Shown here: positions 5,036 to 45,675 of the stretch, in pieces
Position numbering within the stretch: the stretch's first letter is position 1
Layout of the letters: the number at the start of each line of letters is the position of its first letter
From: Oscillospiraceae bacterium
GTDB taxonomy: Bacteria > Bacillota > Clostridia > Oscillospirales > Oscillospiraceae
NCBI GenBank assembly: GCA_031261585.1
Contig: JAISJJ010000141.1
Coordinates: forward strand, 1-49,273
Length of the DNA stretch: 49,273 nucleotides
Direction: 5' to 3'
Notes under the pieces: generated by a model
What the model saw: only the letters and a program-made list of their open reading frames with translations
Database searches by the model: none
What the model was told of the DNA's origin: nothing
Position numbers and translations under genes: made by a program

Positions 5036-6298
5036 ATGACCATATCGATCTCCGAAAACCTTAAAAAACTCCGCGTAAACCGCGAGATCACGCAGGAAGC
5101 TCTCGCGGAACACCTCGGTGTGTCCGCGCAGTCCGTGTCCAAATGGGAGCGCGGCGAGAATTTCCCCGATCTGACGCTCGTGCCGATGATCGCGAACTAC
5201 TTCGACGTGTCCACCGACGTTTTGCTCGGTATGGACGCGATTCGCAGCAAGAAGCGCGTCGAGGACGCGAAAGCGAAAACGCTGGAACTCCGCATGTCCG
5301 ACACCGACACACAGGACGAGCGGCTCGAGCTGTGGCGCGAGCTTGCGCATGATATGCCGCACGATTACGAGGTGCAGTTCCTGTATGCGGGCGAGTTGAA
5401 AGGCAAGCATGAGAAATGGGTTGACGTGCGCAATTTTGACCCGTATAAACGCGAAGCCGTGCAGATTTACGAGCGCATTTTGGACAACAGCACGGACGAT
5501 GAACTGCGCACGAGGACAATCGCCGTGCTGTGCAACGCGTATACGGAGCTGCGCGAGCTTGACAAGGCGCGCGAACTTGCGGCGCGGCTGCCCGTAGTGC
5601 ATCAATGCCGCGAGTGGATGGGTGAGATGATTGCGCAAAAGGCGATTGAACAGTACCTCAATCAGCTAAACGAAAACGCGGGTGTCAAGCTCGTGCGGGC
5701 GAACACCATAACCGACCCGAGCGAGTTGCTGCGGATGTTGCAGGACACGGAGGCGACAGAGAAATTCAACCTTGCCCGCGAGAAAGCTATGAAAAGCATC
5801 GACAAGGCGACCGCCGAGGAACTGACAAAGCCGTTCAGCGACGCGCTGTTCGCGTATAGCGTGCGGGTGAGCAACGCACTGAGTAACCTCGGACATTTCA
5901 GACGACAACTCGGGTTAGAGCAGGACGGCGAGTATATCAGGCTTCTGAAACTTGAAATGGCAATTGCGGACATTCAACAGTGGGACAGACCGAACGACGG
6001 CACGCGCTACATGAATACATACCAAAATCTCGCGCTCGAATACCTGAAAACCGACTTCGACACCGCGCTCGACTACATAGTAAAAGCCATCGAGTGCGCC
6101 GCGCACACCGACCCGTCGCTGATGGCGCACGGCGTAGAGAGCATGGTCAGCGACGACGGCACCGTCACGAAGAATCGCTTTGAACGACCCGCGCGCGAGC
6201 AGTTGGCGCAAATGTACGAACGCAACATAACGCTCGACCCGTTCCGCGAACACCAGAGGTTTATAAACGCGATGGCGAAATTGAAAACGGACAATTGA
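5036..6298 (+). CDS. XRE-family HTH regulator with TPR-like C-terminal region (paralogue 1)
   Basis: ISENLKKLRVNREITQEALAEHLGVSAQSVSKWERGENFPD; RBS AAGGAG; C-terminus LDPFREHQRFINAMAKL. Confidence 0.88.
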   Translation: MTISISENLKKLRVNREITQEALAEHLGVSAQSVSKWERGENFPDLTLVPMIANYFDVSTDVLLGMDAIRSKKRVEDAKAKTLELRMSDTDTQDERLELWRELAHDMPHDYEVQFLYAGELKGKHEKWVDVRNFDPYKREAVQIYERILDNSTDDELRTRTIAVLCNAYTELRELDKARELAARLPVVHQCREWMGEMIAQKAIEQYLNQLNENAGVKLVRANTITDPSELLRMLQDTEATEKFNLAREKAMKSIDKATAEELTKPFSDALFAYSVRVSNALSNLGHFRRQLGLEQDGEYIRLLKLEMAIADIQQWDRPNDGTRYMNTYQNLALEYLKTDFDTALDYIVKAIECAAHTDPSLMAHGVESMVSDDGTVTKNRFERPAREQLAQMYERNITLDPFREHQRFINAMAKLKTDN

Positions 6299-6628
6299 CA
6301 GTTACGGGGGTGGACGGGGGAACAAACCCCCGCCGCTTGCGAGCGGCACCCCCTTTCCGAAAGGGGGCGGGGACGGTGGACGTTTGGACGGGGGTCTCCC
6401 TCCGCCGTCTGCGGACGGCACCTCCCTCTGAGAGGGAGGCTTTTTTTGGAACGCACCGTCCAAGCCTCCCTCACAGAGGGAGGTGCCGCCGAATGGCGGC
6501 GGTGGGAGGTCACGCACCCCCCGGCCAACTCCTGCCCCCTTTCGGAAAGGGGGTGCCGACCGCAGTCGGCGGTGTTTGTTCCCCCGGCTCCGCAACCCCC
6601 GGCCCACCCCCGGTAACTGTTAATTGTC
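6292..6628. repeat. Composite palindromic repeat element with heptamer-type inverted ends
   Basis: Left end CAATTGACAGTTACGGGGGTGG, right end CCACCCCCGGTAACTGTTAATTG; internal GCCGCTTGCGAGCGGC, GCCGTCTGCGGACGGC and CCTCCCTCTGAGAGGGAGG hairpins. Confidence 0.8.
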
Positions 6629-38525: not shown

Positions 38526-39773
38526 ATGAGCATTACAATTTCAGAGAATCTGAAAAAACTGCGCCGCGCGAGCGACTTGACGCAGGAGGAGCTTGCGGAG
38601 ATCATCGGCGTGTCGCCGCAAACGGTGTCCAAGTGGGAGCGTGGCGAGAATTTCCCCGACATCACGTTCCTGCCCGCGCTCGCGAACTATTTCGAGGTGA
38701 CGGTCGACGACCTGCTCGGCATGGCGGAGATTCGCGACGCAAAGCGCGTAGCGGACGCGGAAGCGCGGCACATGACGCTGTCGCTCGACCAAAAATTCGA
38801 TGAGATCACAGAGATGTGGCGCGAACTGGCGCGCGATATGCCGCACAACTACGAGGTGCAACTGCGTTACGCGACGCAGCTCGCGCAGGATCAGGTCGGG
38901 CAGTTCAGCTTCACCCCCGAGGATTACCTCGCGCGCAAGCAACCCGCGATAACAATCTTCGAGCATATCCTCGAAAAATGCACCGACGACGGGATTCGCA
39001 ACCGCGTGTACAGCCAACTGTCGACCATCTACAACAACTGCGGCGACGCGGAAAAGGCGTATGCCTATGCGGACAGACTGCCCGAATTTTTGCAGTGCCG
39101 CGAGAACCTGCGCATGAATATCGCGCAACTTGAAGCATCGCGGTATCAGAGCGGCGGTAGCGTGTTAAACGGTCTCGGTATCGACCCCGACGAGTTAAAA
39201 GACCTCGACGAGGACGCGAAGCGCGCGCTCGTGATGAAAAAGTTCCTCACACCGAGAGAGCGCGAGCCGATAGAGTACGACCCCGAGGTCGTCGAGGGCT
39301 TCCTCAACGAAATCCGCCAGCCGATGCGCCAGTACGCGAGCCATGCGGGTATCGCGCTACGCAACTTGGTCACGTTTAAAAGCATGTTCGGCGTTGATCG
39401 CGGCGGCGAGTACTTGGAAATGCTGAAAACGTCAATGGTAATCTCCGAGATTATGATGTGGGATGAGCCGCAGGACGCCGACCGCCACAGCGGTTCGTAC
39501 TTCAACCTCGCGCAGGAGTACATGAAAACAGACCATGCCGCCGCGCTCGACTACGCCGTAAAGGCGATTGAGGACATGGCGAAGTTTCCTCGCCTCGACA
39601 CGCAAATCGGTAGCGGCACCACAATCGACGAGGACGGTCACGTCGTGCGCACCGAGAGTGAGACGATTCGGGAGATGCACCTCCGCATGTTCGACGGCAA
39701 CGAGGTGTTCGACCCGATACGCAACGACCCGCGATTCGTCGCGGCGATGGCGAAACTGCGCGGCGAGGTGTAG
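38526..39773 (+). CDS. XRE-family HTH regulator with TPR-like C-terminal region (paralogue 3)
   Basis: ISENLKKLRRASDLTQEELAEIIGVSPQTVSKWERGENFPDITFLPALANYFEVTVDDLLG; C-terminus FDPIRNDPRFVAAMAKL. Confidence 0.9.
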   Translation: MSITISENLKKLRRASDLTQEELAEIIGVSPQTVSKWERGENFPDITFLPALANYFEVTVDDLLGMAEIRDAKRVADAEARHMTLSLDQKFDEITEMWRELARDMPHNYEVQLRYATQLAQDQVGQFSFTPEDYLARKQPAITIFEHILEKCTDDGIRNRVYSQLSTIYNNCGDAEKAYAYADRLPEFLQCRENLRMNIAQLEASRYQSGGSVLNGLGIDPDELKDLDEDAKRALVMKKFLTPREREPIEYDPEVVEGFLNEIRQPMRQYASHAGIALRNLVTFKSMFGVDRGGEYLEMLKTSMVISEIMMWDEPQDADRHSGSYFNLAQEYMKTDHAAALDYAVKAIEDMAKFPRLDTQIGSGTTIDEDGHVVRTESETIREMHLRMFDGNEVFDPIRNDPRFVAAMAKLRGEV

Positions 39774-39786
39774 GAGCGGCGAAACA

Positions 39787-39823
39787 GGACAGGGATTGCA
39801 ATTTCGTGTTGCAATCCCTGTCC
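39787..39823 (+). terminator. Intrinsic-type hairpin
   Basis: GGACAGGGATTGCAA-tttcgtg-TTGCAATCCCTGTCC, perfect 15-bp stem 14 bp after the HTH/TPR stop. Confidence 0.7.
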
Positions 39824-39930
39824 ATTTATGTTAAAATATCTGCGGTGCTGCCGCAACGACAGACGGTTTATCCCCGAGAGGGGGCGAAATACTTGTTGAA
39901 GCCCCCTTGATACAGAAAGGGGGTGACGAT

Positions 39931-40014
39931 ATGGTGACATGGGAACTGCTTTTCGCGTTTGTCATGATACTTATCGCTGTCGCGAAATTCTTTCGAGACG
40001 ACAACAAAAAGTAA
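39931..40014 (+). CDS. 27-aa hydrophobic peptide, candidate type I toxin (holin-like/TxpA-type)
   Basis: MVTWELLFAFVMILIAVAKFFRDDNKK; AAGGGGGTGA Shine-Dalgarno paired with upstream CCCCCTT (39902-39908 with 39917-39923). Confidence 0.75.
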   Translation: MVTWELLFAFVMILIAVAKFFRDDNKK

Positions 40015-40092
40015 CCGCCCTCTTCCACGATCGCGGTTACTTTTTGTAACTAATCACTCGGAGAGCTGACCGTTTGTCGGTAGCACCCTTAT
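40005..40092 (-). ncRNA. Candidate antisense RNA antitoxin
   Basis: Minus-strand TTGACA (40127-40122), 17 bp, TATAAT (40104-40099), start expected near 40092; ends at 14-bp hairpin CAAAAAGTAACCGC/GCGGTTACTTTTTG (40005-40046) overlapping the toxin 3' end. Confidence 0.7.
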
Positions 40093-40159
40093 GACCGCAT
40101 TATACCACCCCCGCGCCCGTTTGTCAAGCGGTAACAATACGAAATTGCGAGGTTACGCC

Positions 40160-40996: not shown

Positions 40997-41245
40997 TAAT
41001 TGAAAATTAACGAGATAGGACGGGAGTTGTGGCACAGTTGTAATCCCCGTCCTAAAATTGCCCATGATATTACCCGCGTTGACACGTTTGAGGGGTATAA
41101 AAGCGGCTTGCCGCTGTATGTGAAACAGCGGCATTAGCCATCAATCAAGAAAATATCATATATATTAAAAATTCGCTTGACTTTCTATTTGCGTTGTGGT
41201 AGTATAAAAAAATTGTTTATGTCGCGCGGGCGGGAGGTATGCAAA

Positions 41246-41461
41246 GTGACGATAAACTACAACAGGCTATGGAAACTTTTAATTGACAAGGGGTTAAATC
41301 GGACGGAACTAAAACGCCTTGCAAGGGTTAGTACGAACGCAATCGCAAAAATGGGCAAGAATGAACCAGTCGCGATGGAAACGCTGGCTAAAATATGCGC
41401 CGCCCTTGATTGCGGCGTTGACGATATAGTAGAAATGAAAACCGATAACGGGGGTAAATAA
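41246..41461 (+). CDS. Small XRE-family HTH protein, putative restriction-modification controller
   Basis: GTG start after GGGAGG; INYNRLWKLLIDKGLNRTELKRLARVSTNAIAKMGKNEPVAMETLAKICAALDCGVDDIVE; 3 bp before the methylase. Confidence 0.8.
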   Translation: MTINYNRLWKLLIDKGLNRTELKRLARVSTNAIAKMGKNEPVAMETLAKICAALDCGVDDIVEMKTDNGGK

Positions 41462-41464
41462 TCA

Positions 41465-42397
41465 ATGGCTATTCATAACAAATCGCATAACAATCATGCT
41501 TTAATGTCACTGAACAAAATGCGCAAAGATAATAGCACGAAACAAAAAAGCGCAAAAGACTTTGATAAATTTGGCGAAACAAAGATTTTAATTAGTATAA
41601 TGGATTGTTGCGACTTCTTAAAAGAATTGCCCGATGAATGCGTGCAAATGATTTGTATTGATCCCCCCTATAATCTTGAACTCACAGGTTGGGATATTTA
41701 TGAAAACTATATTGAATGGGCGGCAAAGTGGTTGGAAGAAGCGTATAGGGTTTTGTCAAAGAACGGAAATATGGTAATATTTGGAGGAACGCAATTTCGT
41801 GATGCGAAATCAGGTGACTTAATTGATATAATTCAATATGTTAGACGAAATACGAAATTTAAGCTGATTAATACAATCGTTTGGTATTACAAAAATGGTA
41901 TGTCTGCACACAGATACTTTGCTAATAGGCACGAGGAAGTAATTTGGTTGGCAAAGTCTAATGACTATTATTTTGATTTGGATTCCGTTAGAGTTCCGTA
42001 TTCAGAAGAAGATTTGAAGCTTGCATTAAAGGACAAACGACTGAATCCTGAAAATACAATGAAAGGTAAAAATCCTACTAATGTTTGGCAAATTGGTCGA
42101 CTAAATGGGAATAGCAATGAGCGCGTGGGACACCCGACACAAAAGCCCGTTGAGATTGTTGAACGCCTTATCAAAGCCCTTTCATGCCGAAGCTCGGTTG
42201 TTCTTGATTTTTTTGCAGGAAGCGGGACTGTCGGCAGAGTATGTATTGCCGAGGGTAGGCATTGCCTGTTGTGCGATAGTGATAAGTCTACACTTGATTA
42301 CTTTACAAAGCACATTGAACAGATGAGAAACTTAGGCAAAGATACAAGCCATATAGAGGTAGAAAGCATAAATGAGTTTTTCAAGGCTAATGTCTGA
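41465..42397 (+). CDS. Type II DNA adenine methyltransferase, M.RsrI-like
   Basis: QMICIDPPYNLELTGWDIYENYIEWAAKWLEEAYRVLSKNGNMVIFGGTQF; YKNGMSAHRYFANRHEEVIWLAK; RLNGNSNERVGHPTQKPVEIVERLIKAL; VVLDFFAGSGTVGRVC. Confidence 0.92.
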   Translation: MAIHNKSHNNHALMSLNKMRKDNSTKQKSAKDFDKFGETKILISIMDCCDFLKELPDECVQMICIDPPYNLELTGWDIYENYIEWAAKWLEEAYRVLSKNGNMVIFGGTQFRDAKSGDLIDIIQYVRRNTKFKLINTIVWYYKNGMSAHRYFANRHEEVIWLAKSNDYYFDLDSVRVPYSEEDLKLALKDKRLNPENTMKGKNPTNVWQIGRLNGNSNERVGHPTQKPVEIVERLIKALSCRSSVVLDFFAGSGTVGRVCIAEGRHCLLCDSDKSTLDYFTKHIEQMRNLGKDTSHIEVESINEFFKANV

Positions 42398-42434
42398 AAG
42401 AATATAATGTTATCGTAAGGAGCTAATTGGTGTT

Positions 42435-43274
42435 ATGAAAAAAAGACAATCAAATAGATTAACAGAACAACAAAAAGAGGGACAGGGACCTATTTCGATT
42501 TTTCACGCAGATGCCCAAGAGCACGATAAAGAAGTGAATAGTACTTCAATTATTGCTATGCAGCGACTTTATGCCAAATTTCCAATGCTGGCGTTCAGAT
42601 ACAGGAAAGACCTTCAAAAAAAAGAAATTAACGAATCTTTACAAAAGATTGATAAATACCTTGGGCAAACGCTTTTTGTCGAAAATGCCAGTATAAAGCC
42701 CGATGGCGGTATAATCGAAGTTAAAGATGATAATGGAAACTGGCGGGTGGTGTTGATTTCAGAAGCCAAGCACCAAGGGAAAGACATTGAGAATATTGCA
42801 AAAGGCATTCAAGTTGGTGTAAAAAGCAATCAAGATACAATGGTTGCCGGAAATGCTATTGAGAGGGCACACAAAAATATCAACGAAATAGCAAACTATA
42901 TGTTAGGCGAACGTCACTTCCCATATATATTATTTTTAGAAGGCTCAAATTTTTTAACGCAAAATGTTGATATTACGCGCCCTGACGGGAGAACTGTAAC
43001 ATTAGTCTATAATGCTGGTGGACTTAATCGGCTTGACAGGCTGACAGCTGCAAATTACGGTATGCCAATAAATACGAATCTATGTGAAAATAGATTTGTG
43101 CTATGTAATGGCGCAAGTGTCATGTTACAAGCCACGTCGATTTACACCAAGGGCGAGGGCGGGCATTGGAATTCCGAGGATATGACCGATATTATGCTTG
43201 AAGTTGCCCAAACTTCTCTAAAAGTGTTAGGAAAAGATCTTTTCGGGCAACTTAGTATGAACGCCGATACATAA
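42435..43274 (+). CDS. Type II restriction endonuclease, EcoRI family
   Basis: KKRQSNRLTEQQKEGQGPISIF; SIKPDGGIIEVKDDNGNWRVVLISEAKHQGKD; GNAIERAHKNINEIANYML; HFPYILFLEGSNFLTQNVDITRPDGRTV; NRLDRLTAANYGMPINTNLC. Confidence 0.93.
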   Translation: MKKRQSNRLTEQQKEGQGPISIFHADAQEHDKEVNSTSIIAMQRLYAKFPMLAFRYRKDLQKKEINESLQKIDKYLGQTLFVENASIKPDGGIIEVKDDNGNWRVVLISEAKHQGKDIENIAKGIQVGVKSNQDTMVAGNAIERAHKNINEIANYMLGERHFPYILFLEGSNFLTQNVDITRPDGRTVTLVYNAGGLNRLDRLTAANYGMPINTNLCENRFVLCNGASVMLQATSIYTKGEGGHWNSEDMTDIMLEVAQTSLKVLGKDLFGQLSMNADT

Positions 43275-43614: not shown

Positions 43615-43774
43615 ACGTAGGGACGGACGACCCCGTCCGTCCTGTATTCTGCATAACCATACAAGGACGGACAGGGTCGTCCGTCCCTACGCACGAGACC
43701 GCGACGCGAATCAAACGCAACCCTCGTCCAAACCCTCGTAACTGTTAACTGTTAATTGTTAACTGTTAATTGAC
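43615..43774. repeat. Repeat element: GTAGGGACGGACGACCCCGTCCGTCC inverted pair plus heptamer array
   Basis: GTAGGGACGGACGAC...GTCGTCCGTCCCTAC arms; TAACTGTTAACTGTTAATTGTTAACTGTTAATTGACC at 43739-43774. Confidence 0.8.
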
Positions 43775-44963
43775 CAACCGCCGCGTCGAACCTCGGGTCT
43801 CCGCGCAACGGGTCGAACTGCGGATTTTCCGCGTACATGCGCGCGATTGCACCGATGTCTACAACGCTGAAATGCGCGCCCGTGCCGTCGTTCTGCCGCT
43901 CGTGAGTGGCGAGCGTGTACTGCACCGCACGCTCTAAGTAGCCGATTGCGCGCTCCGCATCGAACGGTGCGAGGTACCGCGCGCAGTCCTCGCAGTGGTG
44001 GAGTTGCGCGGCGATATCGCCGTCCTCGATCATGCGCACGATAACCGCGCGCGTCTCGGGGTCGAGGTCGGGATTGTCCTCGGGCGCGCCCGTACTCGGC
44101 ACGAACCGACTGAACGGCAGCAGCTTTTCGCGCAGTTCGAGCATCGCGACGGTCTCGTCGCGGTCGAGCGTGCCGCGCCGCAATTTCTCCTGCAACACGA
44201 TGCGAATACTCTCCTGCAAATACCCCGTGAAACCGGGGACAAACTGCCGCAATCGCTCGAACTGCGCGTCGGGCAGACCGCCGTTCTCGTAATTCGCGCT
44301 CGCGTAGTTGTTGAGCAGCCGCAGCAGCAGACCCTCGCAACTCTCGGACATATGCGGCAACTCCTCCGCCGCCGCTACCAGCTTGTCGAGGTCGCCGAGC
44401 GTACCGTACACGTCCGCGCGGCGCGACAACGCCGTGTACCGCGTCGCGCTGTCCGTACAGTTCGCGAGCACCTTGTCCAACACATCGATTGCGTCGTTCA
44501 GCCGCTCTGTTTTGCGCATGTCGGACGTCAGACGCGCCGCGTACTCGATTTGCAGCTCGTAATGCGTCGGAAACTCGCGGATGATGTCGCGGTACATGCC
44601 GTACAACCGCTCGTTGAACTCCGCCATGTCCGCGTCCGCCGTTTCGTCGAGCTGTGTGATGGCTATCGGGTTCGGATTCGAGCTCATGCGCGCGAACTGC
44701 TCCTGAAACATGTCGGTGACGCGCTGCTGAAAGTCCGCGATGCGCTGTTCGTCGCGGAAACGCTCCATGCCGATAAGCTCGTCGACCGTGACGGCGAAAC
44801 AGTTCGCGAGCGCGGGCAGCATATCCATGTCGGGGTAGCACGCGCCCAACTCCCACCGCGACACCGACTGCGGCGACACGTCGAGAATCTCCGCAAGCCG
44901 CTCCTGCGTCATCTCGCGCTCCCGACGCAGCCGTTTGATGTTCTCCGCAATGCCGATTTTCAT
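43752..44963 (-). CDS. XRE-family HTH regulator with TPR-like C-terminal region (paralogue 4)
   Basis: MKIGIAENIKRLRREREMTQERLAEILDVSPQSVSRWELGACYPDMDMLPALANCFAVTVDELIG; C-terminal GQLTVNN encoded by the heptamer array. Confidence 0.9.
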   Translation of the reverse strand: MKIGIAENIKRLRREREMTQERLAEILDVSPQSVSRWELGACYPDMDMLPALANCFAVTVDELIGMERFRDEQRIADFQQRVTDMFQEQFARMSSNPNPIAITQLDETADADMAEFNERLYGMYRDIIREFPTHYELQIEYAARLTSDMRKTERLNDAIDVLDKVLANCTDSATRYTALSRRADVYGTLGDLDKLVAAAEELPHMSESCEGLLLRLLNNYASANYENGGLPDAQFERLRQFVPGFTGYLQESIRIVLQEKLRRGTLDRDETVAMLELREKLLPFSRFVPSTGAPEDNPDLDPETRAVIVRMIEDGDIAAQLHHCEDCARYLAPFDAERAIGYLERAVQYTLATHERQNDGTGAHFSVVDIGAIARMYAENPQFDPLRGDPRFDAAVGQLTVNN

Positions 44964-45100
44964 CGTCTCCCGCCTTTCGTGATGTGATAACGGCATTATA
45001 TCACACCGAGCAGGATTTTCAAGCGCGCGAAACGAGAGATTTATTCACGCAGGACGTGAGGGGTAAAGGCGGCGGCGCGAGAAATGTGTTGATAATTTGG

Positions 45101-45128
45101 TTGACAAAGACATAGAATATGATATAAT
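45101..45128 (+). promoter_or_regulatory. Consensus sigma-A promoter
   Basis: TTGACA (45101-45106), 16-bp spacer, TATAAT (45123-45128), 7 bp before ATG 45136. Confidence 0.7.
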
Positions 45129-45135
45129 CAAGTGC

Positions 45136-45675
45136 ATGAAGATTCCGTCAGAGTATTATTCTCAGGGAGGTATTCCTCCCGATGTTCTCGACACCGTCGG
45201 TAGGGTAATCGCCGAATTCGAGAGGGAATACACCCTTAATCTGAATGATGTTGTCGCTGAGAGCATGGGTTCGGAGAATCAAGGTGTTGTGTTTCAGTAC
45301 CGCCCGCTGAACAAATCGGGGGCAACAGACCCGAGAGTGTACATCAACACAGATTACAATTTTGACAATTTGAGGTTTGCGTTGAAACGAAACTTTGAGG
45401 GTGGAGTCCTTTCCGAACGCACAATCGACGAACTCGTTCGACACGAATTGGCACACGCCTTGACGTTTCAAGGCGTTCCGTTAAACCGCCTTAATGCATT
45501 CAACGCGGAGTTAAACGAGGAGTTTGTGCGTGGTGTGTCCTTGTATTCCGACAGACTGCGTGATGGGGCGGAAGCAATCGCCGAGGCTTTCACTAAGTTG
45601 GAGCGCGGAGAATCCGTTCCCGAAGAGGCAAAACTGCTTGTAGAGCGGTTAATCTATCGTTGGAGGAAAAAATAA
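45136..45675 (+). CDS. HExxH zincin-like protein, possibly prophage-derived
   Basis: TIDELVRHELAHALTFQG (HELAH) with helical surroundings; TAATG overlap with the next ORF. Confidence 0.65.
   Translation: MKIPSEYYSQGGIPPDVLDTVGRVIAEFEREYTLNLNDVVAESMGSENQGVVFQYRPLNKSGATDPRVYINTDYNFDNLRFALKRNFEGGVLSERTIDELVRHELAHALTFQGVPLNRLNAFNAELNEEFVRGVSLYSDRLRDGAEAIAEAFTKLERGESVPEEAKLLVERLIYRWRKK

Follow-up and report, generated by a model that had tools for sequence, protein, structure and literature searches.

A contig of 49,273 nucleotides from an Oscillospiraceae bacterium, the whole of which we call the window, carries a short open reading frame and a convergent promoter-like sequence, with an XRE-type regulator gene (38526-39773) on one side and larE (TIGR00268) on the other. 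Do these elements constitute a type I toxin-antitoxin cassette, as an earlier note made from the letters alone had suggested, and, if so, how would the toxin mRNA be silenced? The elements described in that note were all recovered. An ATG at 39931 opens a hydrophobic peptide of 27 aa, the putative toxin MVTWELLFAFVMILIAVAKFFRDDNKK (39931-40014, plus strand), whose Shine-Dalgarno (SD) sequence AAGGGGG (39917-39923) is complementary to the upstream CCCCCTT (39902-39908) across an 8-nt loop, giving an SD hairpin at 39902-39923 of the same strand. The stop codon (40012-40014) is located within a perfect 14-bp inverted repeat (40005-40018/40033-40046, both strands) that has T-tracts on each strand; the resulting central hairpin (40005-40046) is the predicted terminator of the antisense RNA and is possibly used in both directions. 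On the minus strand, a sigma-70-type consensus promoter, TTGACA-17-TATAAT (40127-40099), matches at 12 of 12 positions and has a TG extension. Among promoter-like sites in a 2-kb scan (three, versus 0.6 expected) it is the sole perfect one, and it would produce an antisense antitoxin RNA of about 90 nt, RNA II (40002-40092, minus strand), predicted from its sequence and co-conservation.

Three features were absent from the earlier note, namely a promoter on the toxin strand, an inverted repeat formed by the two RNA leaders, and further copies of the cassette. The predicted toxin-mRNA promoter, TTGCAA-17-TAAAAT (39809-39837, plus strand), matches at 9 of 12 positions with an extended TG and is located inside the terminator of the upstream helix-turn-helix (HTH) gene; other cassette copies have a predicted toxin promoter at the matching position. 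Downstream of it is the 5' leader of the toxin mRNA, X (GGTGCTGCC...CGGTTTATCCCCGAGA; 39844-39879, plus strand), and beyond the central hairpin its counterpart X' (CTCGGAGAGCTGACCGTTTGTCGGTAGCACC; 40057-40087, plus strand), which is the complement of the RNA II 5' leader. We predict that X and X' form the 5' and 3' arms, respectively, of a clamp that closes the toxin mRNA. Several observations concern the surroundings of the cassette. A long perfect hairpin (39787-39823), which serves the upstream HTH gene as terminator, overlaps the -35 region of the predicted toxin promoter. Proteins of 415 and 414 aa with an N-terminal HTH_3 domain, encoded at 38526-39773 (plus strand) and 43752-44996 (minus strand), flank the cassette, larE and a restriction region, and look like paralogues. 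Downstream of the cassette and larE, an EcoRI-family restriction endonuclease gene (42435-43271; PF02963, E 1e-133) is preceded by genes for a small helix-turn-helix protein (41177-41461) and an N6/N4 DNA methylase (41465-42394), and on these domain assignments this clostridial genome has a complete EcoRI-like system at 41177-43271.

The host genome contains the 27-aa peptide in three copies at 100% identity and one at 63%. The three identical-peptide copies show 3, 7 and 8 nt differences, every one of them synonymous, compared with an expectation of about 21% for random changes; judged by these substitutions, the window peptide is under purifying selection, that is, coding constraint. A search with a short RNA II leader motif revealed two more cassettes, whose peptides differ from that of the window (MTDKVVGWFFQLFTLVLRIVELGLKARQDKKK and MNLNAIIALFNLALNIARFIKDIFKHKK), and an RNA II copy that lacks a toxin. 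Searching relatives with the peptide gave weak matches only, and a search of a phage collection with a representative peptide gave one weak match; the peptide-based search of relatives was replaced by an RNA model. The latter, R1, is a covariance model trained on nine sequences that each comprise RNA II and its promoter. It scores 108.7 bits (E 2e-26) at the window locus, which is one of these nine. In the host genome it identified 10 strong loci (95-139 bits), nine of them with an ORF and one orphan. Weaker matches in the window, at 45101-45184 and 1533-1630, were discarded as they lacked a fitting ORF. The orphan RNA II (L011 1454-1580; G000:C52:14942-15068) has a promoter but no toxin ORF and lies directly upstream of a complete cassette; it may supply additional antitoxin or act in trans as a decoy.

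At E<=0.01, R1 matched 42% of the genomes sampled from the same family (126 of 300), representing 58 of 106 genera with up to 11 matches per genome, and at E<=1e-4 it matched 24 of the 398 genomes in a phylum-wide sample. An exact DNA pattern for RNA II (TATAAT, 8-16 nt, GGYGYTRCCGRYARRCGG) was matched by at least 115 sequence stretches of named genomes, from Oscillospiraceae, Lachnospiraceae (Roseburia, Butyrivibrio), Negativicutes (Selenomonas, Anaerovibrio, Centipeda, Phascolarctobacterium) and a few others, as well as in 24 viral contigs, and some copies are in prophage contigs. Cultured carriers of the cassette include Selenomonas, Anaerovibrio, Roseburia and Butyrivibrio; Sporobacter termitidis DSM 10068 and Roseburia inulinivorans DSM 16841 are examples of cultured strains with the RNA chassis. 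Tandem arrays also occur: in L182, RNA II occurs four times at a spacing of about 370 bases (5406-6560), and one complete genome has more rows of cassettes (G718:C1:1811007-1812142 and 1772204-1773000). Neither the window nor any of 17 relatives matched an Rfam family at the gathering score, known antitoxin RNAs included, and the window gave no relevant sub-threshold match; the cassette family was not described in the publications searched. The window locus is thus apparently one copy of a very common, uncatalogued family of type I toxin-antitoxin cassettes of gut bacteria, in which, by these comparisons, conservation across Clostridia and Negativicutes resides in the RNA parts and the peptide is highly variable.

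Does the peptide gene travel with RNA II? We scored ORFs of 18-60 codons that are preceded by an SD sequence, are hydrophobic, lie on the opposite strand and end within the RNA II 3' region. Such an ORF, ending in the RNA II terminator, was present at 118 of the 147 distinct loci found by the pattern, a rate of 80%, and at 26 of 2396 random control positions in the same contigs (1.1%). A C-terminus rich in K/R was found in 101 ORFs at RNA II loci, compared with seven at controls, and 106 of the 132 loci found with R1 likewise have such an ORF. The earlier note had called for a check of co-conservation in related genomes and had predicted that, were it mistaken, homologous loci would keep the hairpin without the ORF and promoter; this is not the pattern seen. 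Its type I toxin-antitoxin reading is therefore backed by comparison, with peptide, SD hairpin, antisense RNA and shared hairpin co-conserved in well over 100 loci.

The leaders of the two RNAs bear on how the mRNA may be controlled. RNA II starts with GGYGYTRCCGATARACGGTTAGCCC, and the toxin mRNA of the same locus starts nearly alike, with GGYGYTRCC-ATAA-CGGTAGGCGGTTAGCCC. This likeness is specific to each locus, with a score of 23.8 for a locus's own leaders versus 16.0 for those of other loci, a difference reached in 0 of 2000 permutations. When the comparison was made with the six nearest relatives, i.e., those with the most similar toxins, X matched its own RNA II leader better at 174 loci and worse at 23 (p ~7e-30). 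If X pairs with the X' of its own mRNA, mismatches between them should preserve G.U pairs on the toxin strand, and this is what was observed: mismatches that keep G.U in the toxin mRNA (G/A + T/C) numbered 415, against 62 of the reverse kind (A/G + C/T). The bias persisted at 190 versus 62 after removal of two systematic loop positions, and was present at more than 10 separate positions with a significant reversal at none.

Of the alternative explanations, the one that survives best is that the cassette works in the manner of Fst/par: both RNAs would end at the central hairpin, contact would begin through the loop of that hairpin and the C-rich leader of RNA II would then block the SD sequence, with no clamp. 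Convergent promoters, a shared hairpin and SD sequestration all agree with par (PMC7472228), and the RNA II leader is able to pair with the SD region, more strongly for cognate than for random pairs. This pairing looks, however, like a clade-level property, as cognate leaders beat those of the six nearest relatives at 105 loci and lost at 94 (p 0.5), and we did not favour SD blocking by the RNA II leader as the main constraint. The identity of the two leaders is, in contrast, strongly locus-specific, and the cassette repeat is inverted where the par repeats are direct, so that we regard an Fst/par-like mechanism as rather unlikely. A leader-leader duplex of the two RNAs was also discarded as the reason for the likeness, since its energy is not cognate-specific whereas the identity is.

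Folding of the 249-nt window toxin mRNA gave a structure of -105.6 kcal/mol in which 27 X-X' pairs join the first 45 nt to the last 50 nt, the SD sequence is held within its own hairpin and the central hairpin is intact; RNA II folded into a 5' hairpin and a terminator hairpin. At least 8 X-X' pairs formed on folding in each of the 77 loci that had been selected by the pattern and had a recognisable X, and mRNAs with their own 3' ends formed more than those with swapped 3' ends (mean 23.8 versus 20.8, p 3e-10). The probability that the SD sequence of the window mRNA is unpaired was 0.14 with X' and 0.11 without it. Accessibility is low in either case, and therefore the clamp is, in silico, unnecessary for hiding the SD sequence. 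Covariation in the RNA II 5' hairpin, examined in a MAFFT alignment, had 87% of cells paired versus at most 49% when slid, and did not go beyond column shuffles; RNAalifold recovered the first hairpin only from the short mRNA leaders, without double-sided changes.

For the clamp to form, the full toxin transcript has to extend beyond the central hairpin into X', as it likely does. A run of at least four A on the RNA II side, corresponding to a T-rich run 3' of X' on the toxin strand, was found at 68 of 147 loci, compared with 2 of 84 on the mRNA side, and X' followed by such a run can therefore act as a toxin terminator. In the window the T-run after X' is weak (CCCTTAT). Most toxin transcripts may end at the central hairpin, short of X', part of the G.U bias could stem from separate hairpin constraints on each leader, and the X/X' match could be maintained by gene conversion between inverted repeats. 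Given the possibility of such leader constraints and of gene conversion, we grade as likely, and not as proven, that X and X' are a 5'-3' clamp of the toxin mRNA that resembles helix P1 of bsrG.

DNA comparisons show the cassette elements and their co-conservation, a peptide under coding constraint, an X and X' that match within each locus, and a G.U bias in their mismatches. Taken together, these make it probable in our judgement that the cassette is a type I toxin-antitoxin locus in the style of BsrG/TxpA, with an SD hairpin, a 5'-3' clamp and a 3'-antisense RNA II. Transcription of both strands, the transcript ends, pairing in vivo, a role of RNase III and toxicity are what we infer from them, as follows. 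The weaker promoter would produce an mRNA of ~250 nt that encodes the 27-aa membrane peptide and has its SD sequence locked in the local hairpin; X and the 3'-end X' would form a long closing helix, making the full transcript compact and poorly translated. The consensus promoter on the opposite strand would produce the ~90-nt RNA II. This would be antisense to the terminal ~90 nt of the mRNA, where the last codons and the stop codon are followed by the 3' UTR and X'; the 5' end of RNA II would be a copy of X because RNA II complements X'. Binding of RNA II to the mRNA, probably starting from hairpin loops, would lead to RNase III decay and/or keep the mRNA closed. The peptide would be made only when RNA II falls, and would then depolarise or disturb the membrane.

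The nature of the peptides was assessed against profile collections. The match to Pfam Hol_Tox (PF16935) raised in the earlier note does not hold for the window peptide, which matched no Pfam family and, in Pfam and NCBIfam, gave no Fst-type match; it does hold for peptides of sister cassettes, which score 41.3, 34.6 and 25.0 bits, above the cut-off of 23.3 bits. An independent Hol_Tox search of 60 relatives gave eight matches over this cut-off, all eight abutting or overlapping an RNA II locus. Similarity to Hol_Tox at some level was found for 16 of 36 representative peptides, MVTYSELFQFCLVIIG-type peptides staying under the cut-off at 13.2 bits; the other classes, the window's included, have no profile match. 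At 25-36 residues the peptides are too short for a judgement on the common ancestry of all classes. One class found in the same RNA chassis, MPITLTFHVLGFTITVTVKRGTRHSAK/MRITLHIGAFTVTIIVKSRNRHPGR (L163, L150, L166, L223, L143, L153, L291), shows polar/hydrophobic alternation and looks, by this pattern, like a beta strand and not a membrane helix. Purifying selection on the peptides, and the location of chromosomal copies among ordinary genes, would also be expected if the small membrane peptide served the physiology of the cell without being toxic and was controlled by an antisense RNA. We consider such a role quite improbable, as sister peptides exceed the Hol_Tox cut-off, double locking combined with an antisense RNA is a hallmark of toxins, and multicopy occurrence and carriage by prophages are usual for toxin-antitoxin loci.

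That X and X' are instead terminal inverted repeats recognised by a transposase, with ORF and RNAs as passengers of a MITE-like mobile element, would suit the inverted repeats, the multiple copies per genome, the tandem arrays and the copies in prophage contigs, but is very improbable, given that the conserved unit reaches past the repeats to both promoters, that X and X' agree within each locus and not with a genome-wide consensus, that the G.U bias points to RNA pairing, and that the few copies inspected showed no duplication of a target site.

A broader reading of the toxin-antitoxin family, which we regard as possible without leaning towards it, is that one ancient RNA chassis, made up of the promoters, the X/X' clamp, the SD hairpin and RNA II, has been fitted with mutually unrelated toxic peptides, swapped across Clostridia and Negativicutes, and that arrays and orphan RNA IIs might form an antitoxin network. 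According to a 2019 review, most clostridial species had yielded no known type I toxin to homology searches (PMC6563280); the RNA-first search used here reaches cassettes in 42% of one family's sampled genomes. If the clamp and antisense model holds, Hol_Tox peptides would be tied to a defined antitoxin RNA outside Bacilli, the covariance model could annotate many loci, and the role of a 5'-3' mRNA clamp would become testable across many natural variants.

How does the cassette compare with known systems? In hok and aapA/IsoA, a 5'-3' long-distance interaction closes the full-length toxin mRNA, and 3' processing is used (PMC6733600); the predicted 5'-3' closure of the cassette mRNA is similar to that of hok/Sok and aapA/IsoA, which belong to other phyla and encode other peptides. 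The par/Fst system (pAD1 and chromosomal homologues) resembles the cassette in its convergent promoters, shared hairpin, and sequestered SD sequence and mRNA 5' end, and differs in having direct repeats (PMC7472228) where the cassette has an inverted one, and in its peptide, as the cassette peptide has no Fst match. The TxpA/RatA-type likeness proposed earlier stands for the 3'-overlapping antisense RNA and the hydrophobic toxin of Hol_Tox/TxpA type, as in txpA/RatA of the Bacillus subtilis skin element, but bsrG/SR4 is equally close mechanistically. RatA is longer than the cassette RNA II, and the window and its 17 relatives match no Rfam family. An Enterococcus gene annotated as a 'putative holin-like toxin', 64% identical to one family peptide, has a similar inverted repeat that is individually not significant.

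With bsrG/SR4 and bsrE/SR5 of B. subtilis SPbeta and other prophages, the cassette shares a small membrane peptide, an SD sequence in a short G-C hairpin and a 3'-end antisense RNA. It differs in the sequences of its peptides, the window peptide having no detectable Hol_Tox similarity and those of the family being more varied, and R1 gave no significant match to bsrG and Bacilli loci. SR4 is 180 nt long, about twice the length of RNA II, which at ~90 nt starts inside the 3' arm of the predicted clamp and whose 5' end copies that of the toxin mRNA. The bsrG mRNA from SPBc2, folded in the same way, gave 33 5'-3' pairs, and structure probing of bsrG has defined P1 as the main helix, together with an SD lock of 4 bp, which SR4 extends (PMC6562991). 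The cassette is predicted to have a P1-like helix and an SD lock too, and the architecture of the cassette would therefore work like that of bsrG/SR4.
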